DNA from: Hymenobacter glacieicola
GTDB taxonomy: Bacteria > Bacteroidota > Bacteroidia > Cytophagales > Hymenobacteraceae
DNA: 64,000 nt
NCBI RefSeq assembly: GCF_014640315.1
Contig: NZ_BMGS01000008.1
Coordinates: 62,001-126,000, forward strand
Direction of reading: 5' to 3'
Part shown: positions 49,751 to 55,342 of the stretch, piece by piece
Layout: every line of letters starts with the position of its first letter
How positions within the stretch are numbered: the stretch's first letter is position 1
Translations under genes and position numbers: made by a program
Notes under the pieces: model-generated
Databases searched by the model: none
What the model saw: only the letters and a program-made list of their open reading frames with translations
Told to the model about the DNA's origin: nothing

Positions 49751-51661
49751 CTACTGGTAGCGCACTACCCCGGGCTGCCCGAAGCTAAAGTCGCTGAAGT
49801 CGTAGTAGGGCCGGGAGTTTTCGAACACGCGGATGCCATTGGGCGCGCTCATGCCCCGGGGGTAAAAACCAAAGGTAATTTGGAAGGTGCGCAGGGCCGC
49901 GTACTCGTTGCGGAAGCGCAGACCCAGCCCGAAGCCGGTATAAGGCGCTTCCTGGAAGGGCAGCACCTGGCGGGGCGAGCGGGCGTTCAGCCAGGCCACA
50001 TCGGCAAAGGCCACCCCCGCCATCCGAAACCCCAGAAACGAAACGGGCGTGAACAGGGTGGCCTCGTAGTTAAACGTCACGCGGCTGGAGCCCAGCAGCA
50101 AGCCCTGGGGCTGAAAGCCACGCAGGCCGTTTTCGCCATCAATGCTCAGCGGCTGCTCGCCCGGCCGCCGGTTCAGCCCTAGGCTGCTGCGCTGCCAGAA
50201 AAAGTGCCGCCACTGGTAGTTGCCCGTGTGGTACAGGCGCGTGAAATAGAGCAGCTCCCCGCCTACCAAACCCTGCTGCCAGTCGTTGTCGCGCCCGCGC
50301 AGGTAGGAGCCGAACTCCCCGTTCAGGTACAGGTAGCCCCGTTGCGGGTGGTAGCCGGCGTAGGCCAGCCGCAGCCCGTAGTAGCGGCGGTTAGCCACCT
50401 CATTGAACTCGTAGCCGGTAGTCAGACTCAGCAGGGTGCCCGTTGGAATGTCCTCGGTGCGGCCAAAGCCGAACAGGTACTTGTCCTTGTAGTAGCGCCG
50501 GACGCTGTAGCCCACGGTGCCCAGCACCAGGTTGGCATTGAAGTAATCGGCCGTGGGTTTCTGGGCGTAATTGGTGCGAATCAGCCGGCCCGACACAATG
50601 ACGCGCCCCGGGTTTTCATACCCCAAATCGTAGCTTTTCAGCCGCAGCGCCCTACCAAGCCAGGCGTCCTGGGTGTTGTAGCGCAGCGGGTCGAACACGT
50701 ACGGGTCCTCGGGCGTGCCAACGCCCCGCGTAGCCACCACCCGGTCCACGAAATCGTAGCTTAAGGCCCCGGCGTACCGGGTATTCACGGAGTAAAAGTC
50801 GCGGCTGAACCGGACGCCCGCTTCCTTGTTGCGGGTTTCGTTGAGGTAGCGTGCCTGCCCGTACACGAAGTTGCGGAAGGGCACTAGGTAGCTGCCCGTG
50901 TAACGCCAGGTTTGGCCGCCGGGCCCGTTGTAGCTGCGGCCGTACTCGTAGCGGTTGCGGAACTGGTGGCCCAGGCCCAGGAAGTTCACGTCGCGCAGGC
51001 CAATCACCCCGGCCCCTACGTCGCGGAGCTGAAACGAGCCGCTCAGGCTGAAGATGTCCTTGGTGATAACCAGAACATCCACGCTGTCGGCGGTGCTGGT
51101 GCGCTCATTCACGAATACGCGGGCGTCGAGAATCTCGGAGGTCTGGCGCAGCAAACGTTCCGATTCGGCCAGGTCCTGGGGCTCCAGCTCGTCGCCCTCC
51201 CGGAACAGCAGCACCTGCCGCACCCGCGCCTTGTTGGTTTTAATGTGGAAGGTGTTGCCCGCCTTCTCCAGTATGTTGCGCGGAATGCGCGTGGAGTCGG
51301 AAATGCTGTACCCGAAGGCATCCAGCGTGCGCACCTCAATGCGGCGAATGACCTTGTAGTTGTGCCGGTCGTACTGCCGGTCGAGCAGGGTAGCGTCCAG
51401 TCCGGCCTGATCCTCACGCCGCTCCGTGAAGTTGAACAGGACCGAGGCCGCCTTGCCCGCTATGGTTTTGCGCTTGGTGTAGGCTTTGAGGCTATTGAGC
51501 ATGCGCTCCTGATCGAAGCGGCGGCGCAGAGAATCGGGGCGGGCGCCCGGCAAACGGGTCGTATCAGGGTGAGGTAAGGCGGGCGTTTGGGCCAATGCCG
51601 AGGAGGCCAGGGCCAGCCCCAGCACTACTACCCACATCCACACCAGGTACTTCATATTCAC
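49751..51661 (-). CDS. BamA/TamA-like Omp85-family outer-membrane protein
   Basis: This 636-residue protein has a signal peptide (VVVLGLALASSALAQ), POTRA-like repeats (YKVIRRIEVRTLDAFGYSI to DVLVITKDIFSLSG, about 105-220) and a C-terminal 16-strand-type barrel. The sequence ENGLRGFQPQ near residue 530 resembles the L6-loop RGF motif of Omp85 proteins. It lacks the five POTRA domains of BamA, so it is more like the short Bacteroidota relatives or surface-antigen proteins. It probably inserts or exports proteins or lipids at the outer membrane. Confidence 0.85.
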   Translation of the reverse strand: MNMKYLVWMWVVVLGLALASSALAQTPALPHPDTTRLPGARPDSLRRRFDQERMLNSLKAYTKRKTIAGKAASVLFNFTERREDQAGLDATLLDRQYDRHNYKVIRRIEVRTLDAFGYSISDSTRIPRNILEKAGNTFHIKTNKARVRQVLLFREGDELEPQDLAESERLLRQTSEILDARVFVNERTSTADSVDVLVITKDIFSLSGSFQLRDVGAGVIGLRDVNFLGLGHQFRNRYEYGRSYNGPGGQTWRYTGSYLVPFRNFVYGQARYLNETRNKEAGVRFSRDFYSVNTRYAGALSYDFVDRVVATRGVGTPEDPYVFDPLRYNTQDAWLGRALRLKSYDLGYENPGRVIVSGRLIRTNYAQKPTADYFNANLVLGTVGYSVRRYYKDKYLFGFGRTEDIPTGTLLSLTTGYEFNEVANRRYYGLRLAYAGYHPQRGYLYLNGEFGSYLRGRDNDWQQGLVGGELLYFTRLYHTGNYQWRHFFWQRSSLGLNRRPGEQPLSIDGENGLRGFQPQGLLLGSSRVTFNYEATLFTPVSFLGFRMAGVAFADVAWLNARSPRQVLPFQEAPYTGFGLGLRFRNEYAALRTFQITFGFYPRGMSAPNGIRVFENSRPYYDFSDFSFGQPGVVRYQ

Positions 51662-51867
51662 AATTAGCCAGTCTGGGCAAGATACAGCGCAAATGCGTTT
51701 CGCGCGGAGTTTTGTCGAGGTTAAACGGGTAGGAAGTGAGGCCTAAAATAGCAGTTCAGCTCATCATTGAAAAATGCCAGTGAAGGAACATTTCTAAGGA
51801 AATTAGCCTTGTATGATGATGCGTATCTGCGCGTAATCTTCTATTTTTAAGCCCAGAAACCGGCCCG

Positions 51868-53136
51868 ATGAACGACCAGCGTATTCAGGAAAAGCTAAGT
51901 ATTTTGGCAGATGCCGCGAAGTACGACGTATCGTGCTCCAGCAGCGGCGGCAAGCGCAAAAATGAGGACAAAGGCTTGGGCAACGCCGAAGGCATGGGCA
52001 TCTGCCACAGCTACACCGAAGACGGCCGGTGCGTGAGCTTGCTTAAGATTCTGCTGACCAACCACTGCATCTTCGACTGCGCGTACTGCGTGTCACGAAG
52101 AAGTAACGACGTGAAGCGCGCTGCCTTCACCGTGGACGAAGTAGTAGACCTGACTATGAACTTCTACCGTCGTAACTACATCGAAGGGTTGTTCTTGAGT
52201 TCCGGCATTTTCTCCTCGCCTGACTACACCATGGAGCGCCTGGTGCGCATCATTAAAAAGCTGCGCACTGAGCACAAGTTCAACGGCTACATTCACGTGA
52301 AAGCCATTCCGGGCGCTTCGGAAGAACTGATCCAGGAAGCCGGCCTGTACGCCGACCGCCTGAGCGTGAACATTGAGCTGCCGTCGGAAATGGCCCTGCA
52401 GAACCTGGCCCCCGAGAAGAACTACCAGGAGATTCTGACGCCAATGGCTCAGATTCGGGACGGTATTCAGCAGAATAAGGAGGAAAAAGCCTTGTTCAAG
52501 AAAGTGCCGCAGTTTGCTACCGCCGGCCAAAGCACCCAGCTGATTGTGGGCGCTTCGCAGGAAAACGACTTGCAGATCATCAGCCTCACCGACTCGCTCT
52601 ACAAGGGCTACGGCCTGAAGCGCGTGTACTACTCGGGCTACATTCCCGTCACCGACGACGCGCGCCTGCCCCAGGTTACGCAGCCGCCCCTGATCCGGGA
52701 GCACCGCCTCTACCAAACCGACTGGCTGATGCGCTTCTACGGCTTTCAGGCCGATGAAATTCTGGACCCCGCGCATCCCTTCCTTGACCTGGAAATTGAC
52801 CCCAAGCTGGCCTGGGCCCTGCGCAACCGCCACGTATTCCCAGTGGATGTGAATACGGCCGATTACGAGATGATTCTGCGGATTCCGGGGGTAGGGGCCC
52901 GCTCGGCCAAGCGCATTGTTGCCGCCCGCCGGTTTTCGCCCGTCACGCTTGACCACCTGCACAAGTTTGGTGTCGTGCTCAAGCGCGCCAAGTTCTTCCT
53001 GACCTGCCGGGGCCAAGCCCTGGAAAAGCGTGACTACGACGAGCAGACCATCCGCCGCCAGATTTTGTTTGGGGCCGGTTCCGTCCGCTCGGCCCTGGTC
53101 ACCCAGCAGCTCGATCTTTTCGCACAAGCTTCTTAA
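51868..53136 (+). CDS. Radical SAM protein with C-terminal helix-hairpin-helix (putative DNA modification/repair)
   Basis: This 422-residue enzyme carries the radical SAM cluster motif Cys67-x3-Cys71-x2-Cys74 (CIFDCAYC), preceded by CVSLLKILLTNH. A C-terminal helix-hairpin-helix (about 326-356, IPGVGARSAKRIVAARR) indicates DNA binding. It matches a family I know as 'putative DNA modification/repair radical SAM protein', which is usually encoded beside a DUF4130 protein. One is indeed present here, at 54374. The chemistry and substrate are unknown. It is the first gene of a four-gene cassette. Confidence 0.9.
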   Translation: MNDQRIQEKLSILADAAKYDVSCSSSGGKRKNEDKGLGNAEGMGICHSYTEDGRCVSLLKILLTNHCIFDCAYCVSRRSNDVKRAAFTVDEVVDLTMNFYRRNYIEGLFLSSGIFSSPDYTMERLVRIIKKLRTEHKFNGYIHVKAIPGASEELIQEAGLYADRLSVNIELPSEMALQNLAPEKNYQEILTPMAQIRDGIQQNKEEKALFKKVPQFATAGQSTQLIVGASQENDLQIISLTDSLYKGYGLKRVYYSGYIPVTDDARLPQVTQPPLIREHRLYQTDWLMRFYGFQADEILDPAHPFLDLEIDPKLAWALRNRHVFPVDVNTADYEMILRIPGVGARSAKRIVAARRFSPVTLDHLHKFGVVLKRAKFFLTCRGQALEKRDYDEQTIRRQILFGAGSVRSALVTQQLDLFAQAS

Positions 53137-53139
53137 GGA

Positions 53140-53216
53140 GTAGTGCGGTAGTAGTTGCTGGTTTGCCGCCGGACAACATCTCAACGCTCAACAACAAGTA
53201 ACTACTACCGCACTAC
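53140..53216. repeat. Perfect 17-bp inverted repeat in the radical SAM cassette
   Basis: GTAGTGCGGTAGTAGTT at 53140-53156 is exactly complemented at 53200-53216, with a 43-nt loop. It starts 4 bp after the radical SAM stop and ends 16 bp before the next ORF. It may act as an internal attenuator or stabilising hairpin. It is not followed by a T-run. Confidence 0.85.
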
Positions 53217-53232
53217 GAAACCCGCAAGCCCC

Positions 53233-53418
53233 ATGACCATTTCTCATCGCGCCGCCGTCGCGTCGGCCGCCGCCCTCGAAACTGCCAAACCCATGAAAGT
53301 TGCCCGTATTGCCTGCTGCTGTAAGCTCTCGGATTTGTTGCCGCTGGTGCAGCAGTTGCACCGCGAGGTAGCCCGCACCAACGCTGCTCGTGGCAGTCAG
53401 CGTTCGGAGGCGGCATAA
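53233..53418 (+). CDS. Possible small protein with Cys triplet
   Basis: A 61-codon frame lies between the inverted repeat and the hydrolase gene. It encodes KVARIACCCKLSDLLPLV followed by an amphipathic helix (QQLHREVARTN). An inner ATG at 53293 would give 41 residues starting MKVARIACCC. I know no homologue. Coding status rests on position in the cassette and on the ordered hydrophobic/charged pattern. Confidence 0.35.
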   Translation: MTISHRAAVASAAALETAKPMKVARIACCCKLSDLLPLVQQLHREVARTNAARGSQRSEAA

Positions 53419-53474
53419 GGCACATCCGGAGGCGGGAGTGGTAACCCTGCGGCGGCGGGTGGGGTAGGAAGCAT

Positions 53475-54377
53475 ATGGCTTTCGAACTTGAGCATCACCT
53501 CGTGTCAACCAACGGCATCAGCCTGCACGTGGTGCAGTGCGGCCCCGCAAACGGGCCCCTGGTTGTGCTGCTGCACGGTTTCCCGGAGTTCTGGTACGGG
53601 TGGCGCCACCAGCTACAAGCCCTGGCCGCCGCCGGTTACCGCGTGTGGGCTCCCGATCAGCGCGGCTACAACCTCAGCGACAAGCCCGCCCGCGTGGCCG
53701 ATTACCGCATGGAACAGCTGGGCGCCGATATTCTGGGGCTTCTGGATGCTGCTGGTCAGAAGAAGGCCGTAGTAATTGGCCACGACTGGGGCGCAGCCGT
53801 GGCGTGGTGGCTGGCCGCGCAACATCCCGAGCGCCTGCACCGGGTAGTAATCCTGAACGTGCCCCACCCGGCGGTGCTGGGCCGTGCCCTGCGCCGGACG
53901 CCGCGCCAGCTGCTGAAAAGCTGGTACATCTTCTTTTTTCAGCTGCCGTGGCTACCCGAGCAGCTGTTTCGGCGCCGCCAGTTCCGGTTTGGGCGCGGCG
54001 CGCTGCGGGGCACCAGTCGGCCGGGTACGTTTTCTACCGCAGACCTGCACGTGTACACCGAGGCCTGGGCGCAGCCGGGGGCCGTTACCGGCATGATTAA
54101 CTGGTACCGCGCCGCCTTCCGTACCCCCCGCCAAACCGGCCGGCCGGGCCGGATTGCCATTCCCGTCCGGATGCTGTGGGGCCGCCAGGATGCTTTTCTG
54201 GAGCCTGAGCTGGCTCAACTAAGCCTGGAAATGTGTGAGCAGGGCGAGCTAACGTACTTCAACCACGCTACCCACTGGCTGCACCAGGAAGAGCCCGAAG
54301 CCGTGAATACGCTGCTGCTAGAGTTTCTGCGAGCCGACAGGGCCGCGCTTCCCTTACCTGATAACGCACGCGCATGA
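53475..54377 (+). CDS. Epoxide hydrolase-like alpha/beta hydrolase
   Basis: The 300-residue enzyme has an Asp nucleophile (Asp104 in VIGHDWGAAVAWW) and the oxyanion motif LLHGFPEFWYGWRHQ. WGRQDAFLEPE supplies a possible acid and NHATHWLHQEEP the catalytic His. This combination is typical of soluble epoxide hydrolases and related dehalogenases. Its stop codon overlaps the start of the DUF4130 gene (ATGA, 54374-54377), implying translational coupling. A hydrolase of this type between the radical SAM and DUF4130 genes is not something I recall as standard. Confidence 0.9.
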   Translation: MAFELEHHLVSTNGISLHVVQCGPANGPLVVLLHGFPEFWYGWRHQLQALAAAGYRVWAPDQRGYNLSDKPARVADYRMEQLGADILGLLDAAGQKKAVVIGHDWGAAVAWWLAAQHPERLHRVVILNVPHPAVLGRALRRTPRQLLKSWYIFFFQLPWLPEQLFRRRQFRFGRGALRGTSRPGTFSTADLHVYTEAWAQPGAVTGMINWYRAAFRTPRQTGRPGRIAIPVRMLWGRQDAFLEPELAQLSLEMCEQGELTYFNHATHWLHQEEPEAVNTLLLEFLRADRAALPLPDNARA

Positions 54378-55342
54378 GTCGTTCCCTTTCGCCCCTGAAC
54401 TCCCGCCGAAAGGCAGCCCCCACGAAGGCCGCCGGCCCGGTAACCCCGCGCCCCACCGTGGTGCAGCTAACCAACCCGCCGCTGGATTACGCCTATGATG
54501 GCTCGTTTGAGGGGTTGCTGACGGTGCTGTTTAACATCTACGACCGGAAAGCGGCTCCTAACAGCATTCAGCCGTTGGGGGCGGTGCAGGGTGGCCTTTT
54601 TGCCCAGCCCATCCAGATTGCTACCCACGAGGCTACGGCGGCGCGGGTGTGGGAGGGCCTGCTGCGCCACATGGACCAGGAGGCCCGCACCCGCTTGTTT
54701 CACACGTTTCTGAGCGAGCAGCCCGATCGGGAGCTGCTCATCTTCCGCTACGCCGACCTGGCCATGCGCGCCGGCCGCGACATCTCCGACAACTACGCCG
54801 ACGACAACGTGCGCCGCGTTGCCGGCATTGCCCAGCAGATGTACCGCGAAAAGCACCGCATGGAAGCCTTCGTACGCTTCGAGAAAACCTCCGACGGCCT
54901 GTTTCACGCCACCATTGACCCCGACTTTGACGTGCTGCCGCTGATTGCGCCCCATTTCACCAAGCGCTACGCCGACCAGCGCTGGCTGATTTTCGACCAG
55001 CGCCGCCGCTACGGGCTGTATTATGACCTGACCCGCACCGATGTGGTACAGTTTGAAACCACTACCCCCCAGCGCACCACCGATATTTCCGCTACCGTCC
55101 TGGATGAGCGGGAGCCGTTGTTCAAGCTCTTGTGGCAGTCTTACTTCGACCACGTTAATATTCCGGAGCGCAAGAACATGAAGCTGCACCGGCGCCACAT
55201 GCCCCTGCGCTACTGGCGCTACCTGAGCGAAAAGCAACCCCGGGAGCAGCGCTTTGAGCCCATTAAGAACAAGCGCCCGGTGCAGCCCGGTGGGCCGGCC
55301 CTAAGTGAGGGAGGTAGTGCGCTGCAGGAGGAAAAAGGGTAA
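54374..55342 (+). CDS. DUF4130 protein (putative DNA repair partner of the radical SAM enzyme)
   Basis: The 322-residue protein has a short basic N-terminal extension, then the family start YAYDGSFEGLLTVLFNIYDRK (residues 36-56). This is followed by YADLAMRAGRDISDNYAD, REKHRMEAFVRFEKTSDGLF and the DUF4130 end YFDHVNIPERKNMKLHRRHM. Members are annotated as putative DNA metabolism or repair proteins and occur next to the HhH radical SAM protein. The last 40 residues are a Pro/Gly-rich tail. Its start overlaps the hydrolase stop. Confidence 0.9.
   Translation: MSRSLSPLNSRRKAAPTKAAGPVTPRPTVVQLTNPPLDYAYDGSFEGLLTVLFNIYDRKAAPNSIQPLGAVQGGLFAQPIQIATHEATAARVWEGLLRHMDQEARTRLFHTFLSEQPDRELLIFRYADLAMRAGRDISDNYADDNVRRVAGIAQQMYREKHRMEAFVRFEKTSDGLFHATIDPDFDVLPLIAPHFTKRYADQRWLIFDQRRRYGLYYDLTRTDVVQFETTTPQRTTDISATVLDEREPLFKLLWQSYFDHVNIPERKNMKLHRRHMPLRYWRYLSEKQPREQRFEPIKNKRPVQPGGPALSEGGSALQEEKG

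Follow-up and report, generated by a model that had tools for sequence, protein, structure and literature searches.

The stretch of DNA analysed here, called the window throughout (64,000 nucleotides of Hymenobacter glacieicola, contig NZ_BMGS01000008.1, within a genome of 5.04 Mb), contains a locus of four genes on the same strand. They encode a radical S-adenosylmethionine protein with a C-terminal helix–hairpin–helix (rSAM-HhH, below rSAM), a cysteine microprotein of 61 residues, a soluble epoxide hydrolase, and a DUF4130 protein. With a probability of roughly 0.7, we read this locus as one SOS operon in which a known, though little-understood, repair pair (rSAM and DUF4130) is joined by a dispensable epoxide hydrolase and by a microprotein, present throughout the Hymenobacteraceae, that acts independently in the response to DNA damage. 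The parts of the locus have had different fates: the pair has been lost from 2 of 120 family genomes, the hydrolase has been lost about 18 times, and the microprotein is missing from none of the 120. It is this difference, and not position, that carries the weight of the argument.

The operon would have been built in three layers. The oldest would be the rSAM/DUF4130 pair. In the second, a microprotein gene of the Hymenobacteraceae would have come to lie between the two genes, under the same LexA-controlled promoter and without depending on the pair. In the third, the soluble epoxide hydrolase would have been added 3′ of the microprotein in Hymenobacter sensu lato (s.l.), with many losses since. 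A preliminary description of the same DNA had reported the four open reading frames (ORFs), all of which are present (Table 1), and had proposed the cassette of rSAM, hydrolase, and DUF4130 as a candidate DNA modification or repair system.

The microprotein and its presence without the repair pair

The counts below come from 101 genomes (and loci) of the genus and from 40 loci of other members of the family (40 of the 77 family genomes outside the genus), 141 loci in total. Eight of the 40 are from the sister genus g5, which by inference holds H. jeollabukensis, H. gummosus, and Solirubrum, and 32 are from four other genera. A set of 80 named loci, partly independent of these genomes, comprises 48 from Hymenobacteraceae (Hymenobacter, Solirubrum, Adhaeribacter, Rufibacter, Pontibacter, and one unplaced) and 32 from outside the family.

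With the 61 residues as the tblastn query (E ≤ 1e-3), a match occurs in 100 of the 101 genus loci, irrespective of the presence of the hydrolase. The sole miss, G005, does have a copy detected by a pattern search; its C-terminus differs and it looks frame-shifted. The pattern search locates the microprotein in 139 of the 141 loci, an ATG being available in frame every time, and the two that it misses (G072 and G149) are matched by a profile. Profile A1 (65 rows) finds the microprotein in 120/120 Hymenobacteraceae genomes, 73 of them outside that profile, and with such a distribution a chance ORF is rejected. Among 395 genomes of the phylum, the clear matches are four members of the family and nothing else; two further matches are at chance level (E 0.002 with internal stops; E 0.008). 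Similarly, in the named loci the microprotein is present in 47/48 from Hymenobacteraceae and in 0/32 from outside, the one miss (L201) having no rSAM within its 5-kb flank. The genome of the window has a single match even at E ≤ 10. In a genome of the sister genus, a second and degenerate match (G104:C1:1131166-1131285, E 9.2e-10, three stops) lies outside the operon. Searched against the Pfam and NCBIfam families, the window protein has no match, and 48 members give scattered weak matches. On these searches, the microprotein is a new family of 47–77 residues, without named relatives and restricted to Hymenobacteraceae. The preliminary description had correctly noted a tiny ORF with a Cys triplet between rSAM and hydrolase, but without attaching importance to it; of the additions to the pair, it is the most constant.

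The N-terminal tail of the microprotein is variable and predicted to be disordered; most Hymenobacter copies have HR close to its beginning. It is followed by a core with the majority residues KVAR-x-[SA]-[C/L/F]-x-C-[KR]-[LI]-x-x-L-x-P-x-[VL]-x-x-[LM]. No variation is seen at C30 and L35 in the 48/48 microproteins found by profile (set A3); in the set of 139, the invariance of the third Cys and of a Leu arises by construction, since the pattern demands both. The ratio of nonsynonymous to synonymous substitution (dN/dS) is only 0.50 for the whole microprotein and tighter in the core, at 0.33 in the genus (1200 near pairs), falling to 0.10 in the core of the Pontibacter group (39 pairs, including those of both genomes without the pair). 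Thus, the core is under purifying coding selection. The excess of synonymous over amino-acid changes in the core argues against the idea, suggested by the place of the ORF in an operon gap with hairpins, that what is conserved is a leader or an RNA element and not a protein. The in-frame ATG in 139/139 pattern-found copies, the retention of the ORF where DUF4130 is gone, and the lack of an Rfam match in four sources point the same way, and we consider an RNA element very improbable.

As to INDEPENDENCE from the pair, G165 and G179 are the only 2 of the 120 family genomes without DUF4130 (E ≤ 0.001). Both are 99–100% complete and belong to the Pontibacter group g3. The rSAM was not found in either of them, and two control genomes searched alongside do have it. 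In both, the microprotein is intact (E 4.5e-19 and 3.2e-17) and lies beside the same divergent neighbor gene as elsewhere in the family. At the locus of G179, a short ORF, MNSPFVLEKLSVLAGLR*, looks like a scar of the rSAM start. Apparent DUF4130 fragments at these loci overlap the microprotein; they are an artefact of a query that starts too early and were not counted. In a tree of the neighbor protein, G165 joins G107 (100, starred), and G179 falls within a starred group (11 rows) to which G165 does not belong. Since G107 and the nearest tree rows of G179 carry the pair, the two losses are best read as separate events. The flanking genes were thus lost twice with the middle gene intact, as predicted by selection for the microprotein. 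Upstream of the microprotein, exact LexA boxes occur in both genomes: two in G165 (at −245 and −98 from the ATG; L283 7723-7882) and one in G179 (at −300), for 0.017 and 0.020 expected in 440 bp at the two loci. The box at −245 in G165 has the same 13 bases as the box before rSAM in its sister G107.

These two genomes make it unlikely that the tiny ORF is a partner of rSAM/DUF4130, be it a regulator or a substrate of the type of a precursor of ribosomally synthesized and post-translationally modified peptides. Such a role would agree with the location of the microprotein between the pair in 139/141 loci by pattern (and in G072 and G149 by profile) and with an invariant Cys encoded beside a radical SAM gene. 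It agrees poorly with two lineages in which the microprotein is intact and both genes are gone, and with 32/32 loci outside the family that have the pair and no microprotein. We regard it as a doubtful alternative; most likely, the microprotein has a function in the damage response that is independent of the pair.

The LexA box and predicted SOS control

In Bacteroidetes, the LexA motif is reported to be CTAA-N5-TTAG, with large regulons under its control in Hymenobacteraceae (PMC8565304). The sole exact occurrence in the 64-kb window, CTAAGGAAATTAG, is 61 bp from the ATG of rSAM; it was absent from the preliminary description. An exact box is present within 250 bp 5′ of rSAM in 60 of the 101 genus loci (expected 0.85) and in 38 of the 40 other-family loci (expected 0.45). 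For the Hymenobacteraceae loci together, this makes 98/141 with an exact box (expected about 1.3) and 140/141 with at most one mismatch (expected about 28). The enrichment is local. In the genus, 60 exact boxes occur in 25,250 upstream bases versus 46 in 809,075 bases elsewhere (about 42-fold) and, in the family loci, 42 in 10,000 upstream bases versus 23 in 259,400 elsewhere (about 47-fold). Boxes were positioned from script-called rSAM starts, which may be misplaced in G028, G065, and G091, where the rSAM frame is split. In those three genomes (loci L059, L096, and L122) the rSAM match comes in two pieces, with two TGA in one piece of G091, as from broken genes or assembly errors; the microprotein frames there are open.

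In the gap between rSAM and the microprotein, an exact box occurs in 0/139 loci, which fits one promoter shared by the genes. The locus is therefore predicted, from its sequence, to be an SOS operon induced by DNA damage. We take the rSAM-HhH family of this locus to be COG4277. A two-gene COG1573–COG4277 base excision repair operon has been predicted to be under SOS control in Bacteroidetes (PMC8565304). That operon and the present locus share the CTAA-N5-TTAG motif, the phylum, and the setting of large regulons in Hymenobacteraceae; they differ in that its description, in the part available, names neither a microprotein nor a hydrolase. Together with the conserved box, this operon supports the DNA-repair setting that the preliminary description had assigned to the cassette. 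The divergent gene on the other side of the box, which encodes a protein of 636 residues, may share the promoter region.

At the other end of the microprotein, the C-terminus is -AA in 107 of 108 Hymenobacter s.l. copies, the exception being G005. A C-terminus of the -AA type can act as a ClpXP degron, as established for ssrA and for the LexA fragment. By analogy, the microprotein end resembles such a degron and may direct its degradation. Known SOS small regulators (SulA, SidA, YneA, and DinI) are likewise small, behind a LexA box, and, as the microprotein of Hymenobacter s.l., have a degron-like C-terminus. The microprotein shares no family with them in the Pfam and NCBIfam scans; SOS cell-division inhibitors are often unrelated in sequence to one another. 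More tentatively, and rather against the odds, the microprotein could be the founder of a group of SOS-induced, short-lived checkpoint effectors of Hymenobacteraceae (for example, an inhibitor of division or replication) that is kept after loss of the repair genes.

The epoxide hydrolase

The hydrolase has an Abhydrolase_1 match and HGFPE and GHDWG motifs, and its closest solved relatives are epoxide hydrolases (PDB 5ng7, E 2.1e-70). Residues D104, Y194, Y211, H34, and P37 are kept in 65/65 copies, D239 in 63/65 (two gaps), and H267 in 62/65 (two gaps and one Tyr). We take the Asp nucleophile, the two cap Tyr, HGxP, and the His–Asp pair to be the epoxide-hydrolase catalytic set. By its sequence, it is thus a canonical soluble epoxide hydrolase, which bears out the epoxide-hydrolase-like assignment of the preliminary description. 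With other soluble epoxide hydrolases (PDB 5ng7, EphA/EphB, human EPHX2) it has in common the family, the Asp nucleophile, the two cap Tyr, and the His–Asp pair; unlike them, it is encoded behind an SOS box.

The conservation of the hydrolase between the pair is real and partial. With presence called at E ≤ 1e-60, it is found in 60 of the 101 genus genomes, more than chance at this locus, so it is not absent from all close relatives; it is missing from 41. In the 58 carriers with rSAM and DUF4130 on one contig, it always lies between the two on the same strand, and in the other two of the 60 it lies 3′ of rSAM, with DUF4130 on another contig or missing. Beyond the genus, it occurs in 5 of the 8 sister-genus loci and in none of the 32 loci of the four other genera. 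In the named loci it occurs in 13 of 80, all Hymenobacter or Solirubrum. It is mostly 43–52 bp 3′ of the microprotein, and its dN/dS of 0.28 (820 pairs) indicates purifying selection.

On a FastTree tree of rSAM and DUF4130 (116 rows, 65 with hydrolase), presence of the hydrolase changes 17 times; 300 shuffles gave 38 changes on average and never fewer than 29. If the gene was gained once, at the base of Hymenobacter s.l., about 18 losses have to be assumed among 109 rows. Its descent is likely vertical, though not clean. Given about 18 losses with the pair retained, the idea that the cassette requires the hydrolase is rejected; the hydrolase is an ordinary, often lost passenger, dispensable there. 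At the locus of G080 (L111), about 14 kb separate hydrolase and DUF4130. Three genomes without the hydrolase, G029 (L060), G031 (L062), and G071 (L102), have unusually long gaps of 2.1–2.5 kb between rSAM and DUF4130.

These data bear directly on the chemistry proposed in the preliminary description, in which rSAM, hydrolase, and DUF4130 form one pathway for a DNA lesion or a base hypermodification, with the Asp of the hydrolase opening the product of the radical step. The constant placement in 58/58 testable carriers behind the same LexA box, the close spacing (at most 32 bp to DUF4130 in 35 of 63 pairs), and the purifying selection would suit such a pathway. The hydrolase is, however, not found in 41/101 congeners in which the pair is nearly always present, rSAM and DUF4130 persist after the losses, and in the loci read outside Hymenobacter s.l. 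the gene is absent from the locus. Moreover, its solved relatives are epoxide hydrolases, and the outer neighbors of the locus are equally or more conserved. The translational coupling that had been invoked as a functional link fares no better. The ATGA overlap of stop and start does exist in the window, but a spacing of exactly −4, measured from script-called starts, occurs in only 6 of the 63 hydrolase–DUF4130 pairs. Altogether, a role of the hydrolase in radical or DNA chemistry appears quite improbable.

Somewhat favored is that the hydrolase detoxifies reactive epoxides arising under oxidative or genotoxic stress, in which case its place in an SOS operon would be useful but indirect. The retention of the catalytic set (62 to 65 of 65 copies), the SOS box 5′ of the operon, and repeated loss of the kind expected for a niche function are in line with this putative role.

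The repair pair, the surrounding locus, and the proposed mechanism

Both members of the pair score far above the curated cut-offs. The rSAM matches TIGR03916 with E 1.6e-205 (683 bits versus a curated cut-off of 343.5; profile positions 1–414 of 415) and has the Pfam domains PF04055 and, at residues 326–355, HHH_3. The DUF4130 protein matches TIGR03915 (E 3.3e-79, 266 bits versus a cut-off of 112.25) and PF13566 (E 6.9e-52, 175.8 bits versus 27); at E ≤ 0.1 these are its only matches, and it shows no uracil-DNA glycosylase (UDG) domain. The two were rightly described as known gene neighbors, being the TIGR03916/TIGR03915 pair on one strand. The window departs from the usual pair, which abuts, by the microprotein and hydrolase in between and by a DUF4130 without UDG. 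In the genus, rSAM is present in 101/101 genomes and DUF4130 in 100/101, the exception (G036) being an 82% complete draft with the hydrolase at a contig end. In 118 genomes of the order, DUF4130 is found in 21 (9 of the same genus and 12 of other families); in those 12, rSAM overlaps DUF4130 or is within 55 bp of it in 8, is farther away in 2, and is outside the fetched stretch in 2. In 29 of the 32 named loci outside Hymenobacteraceae, the alignments of rSAM and DUF4130 are at most 42 bp apart. We read the pair as old and widespread, with genes that normally abut.

In rSAM, the CX3CX2C radical SAM motif (C67/C71/C74) is invariant in 78/78 rows, and so are C23, C46, and C55, N-terminal to it; these three additional Cys suggest an auxiliary iron–sulphur cluster. 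DUF4130 has been described as an enzyme with a predicted link to mutagenesis that is found in association with UDGs and with radical SAM proteins resembling SplB (PMC3765255). Against solved structures, its sequence gives nothing significant (best E 0.38). Its AlphaFold2 model (predicted local distance difference test, pLDDT, 83; predicted template modelling score, pTM, 0.75) retrieves DHH-superfamily proteins at the first nine ranks of Foldseek, but with E 0.03 or worse. Nearly all the best VIA structure matches also belong to that superfamily, with Z of 8.1 for a PAP phosphatase and about 6 to 7 for RecJ and Cdc45, values that can be unspecific. We assume that the PAP and pGpG phosphatases in the list are members of the DHH superfamily. 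The conserved YDGSFEGLL of DUF4130 after the first strand may be compared with DYDVDGTTS in RecJ of relatives; the catalytic motifs are not matched residue by residue. Profiles of RecJ and NrnA give no signal with DUF4130, in a comparison whose control, NrnA versus RecJ, failed too (four of the eight NrnA rows lacked the DHH motif, probably through a wrong frame). The resemblance of the modelled fold to DHH/DHHA1 proteins (RecJ, Cdc45, family II pyrophosphatase) may serve as a lead only.

Table 1. Features of the locus and its surroundings in the window
Feature	Position	Strand	Remarks
Predicted LexA (SOS) box CTAA-GGAAA-TTAG	51794..51806	.	5′ of the operon; exact motif match
Radical SAM protein, C-terminal helix–hairpin–helix, 422 aa	51868..53136	+	TIGR03916 (rSAM_link_UDG)
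Inverted repeat/hairpin in the rSAM–microprotein gap	53140..53216	.	Folding and repeat search
Cys microprotein (tiny ORF), 61 aa	53233..53418	+	Family found only in Hymenobacteraceae
Soluble epoxide hydrolase, 300 aa	53475..54377	+	Lineage-specific accessory gene; Abhydrolase_1, PDB 5ng7
DUF4130 protein, 322 aa, without UDG domain	54374..55342	+	TIGR03915, PF13566
Divergent 636-aa protein (context)	49751..51661	-	Without Pfam/NCBIfam family; constant neighbor of the locus in the family

The divergent neighbor, for which no Pfam or NCBIfam family is found at E ≤ 0.001, is kept in 99/101 genus loci, 40/40 other-family loci, and 45/48 named loci of the family, and in 0/32 outside. Downstream, rmlD is kept in 86/101 genus loci, in 4/8 sister-genus loci, and in 0/32 other family loci. 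The hairpin between rSAM and the microprotein has arms of 24 nt, 92% complementary (minimum free energy −36.9 kcal/mol, z −4.2), and separates rSAM from the downstream genes. As a special mark of this gap it is weakened, since, in the genus, hairpins with z < −3 occur in 28 of 81 rSAM–microprotein gaps versus 24 of 79 following gaps taken as a control. Intergenic gaps of Hymenobacter (those around the microprotein in loci L032-L131) repeatedly contain long, almost perfect hairpins whose sequences are unrelated and of which some consist of AGTTGNN-like units. Neither the window nor any of three related loci matches Rfam at gathering thresholds, so that a known RNA element is rejected there, and a conserved stretch 3′ of DUF4130 in Pontibacter, at first taken as RNA, reads as a coding start. 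A known defence system is likewise rejected, none of the four proteins matching the PADLOC anti-phage profiles at E ≤ 0.01.

Several points weigh against the single SOS operon with an independent microprotein. Its induction is a prediction. The exact box is missing in 41 of the 101 genus loci, and outside the family it occurs in 5/32 loci (expected 0.15), or 11/32 with at most one mismatch (expected 6). Only two pair-less genomes are known; their boxes may be remnants of the rSAM promoter, and the losses may be too recent for the microprotein to have decayed. The microprotein varies freely outside the core (dN/dS 0.67 in the genus, 0.50 in the Pontibacter group), its modelled helix (residues 32 to 59) is weak at pLDDT 66, and the -AA end was not seen in the microproteins of Pontibacter, Rufibacter, and Adhaeribacter. 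With the whole locus syntenic in the family, little about function can be concluded from position by itself. Finally, in 63 genomes, the Spearman correlation of distances is 0.48 for hydrolase–rSAM and 0.40 for hydrolase–DUF4130, versus 0.79 for DUF4130–rSAM; with the hydrolase tracking rSAM only moderately, horizontal exchange of the hydrolase may have taken place.

In the operon as we propose it, DNA damage would inactivate the Bacteroidetes LexA and the operon would be transcribed. The rSAM, with one cluster at C67/C71/C74, a probable second at C23/C46/C55, and the HhH for DNA, would act together with DUF4130 on DNA lesions. The microprotein, with its disordered N-terminal tail, CxC, and helix, would bind a cell target via CKLxxLxPxLxxL as a short-lived regulator of the damage response, and in Hymenobacter s.l. 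it would be cleared through the C-terminal -AA. The hydrolase would open epoxides via Asp104 and His267–Asp239 with Tyr194 and Tyr211, its substrate being presumably a small molecule and not DNA. Of this picture, the sequences show the architecture, the distribution, the box, the coding selection, and the survival of the microprotein gene without the pair; induction, degradation, the target, and all of the chemistry are inferred.

What was a vague DNA-modification cassette can thus be put into testable statements, namely SOS induction and dispensability of the hydrolase for the function of rSAM and DUF4130. If DUF4130 were a degenerate DHH protein, this long-uncharacterized domain would gain a structural home. 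In the titles and abstract openings surveyed from open-licence papers on DUF4130 and radical SAM proteins, on small proteins of Hymenobacteraceae, and on related topics, neither the microprotein nor the hydrolase insertion is described. Among the Bacteroidetes SOS genes, the available part of PMC8565304 lists repair genes and no checkpoint effector, for which the microprotein is a concrete candidate. Present in all 120 scanned genomes of the Hymenobacteraceae, the microprotein should have a role of its own in the damage response of the family.

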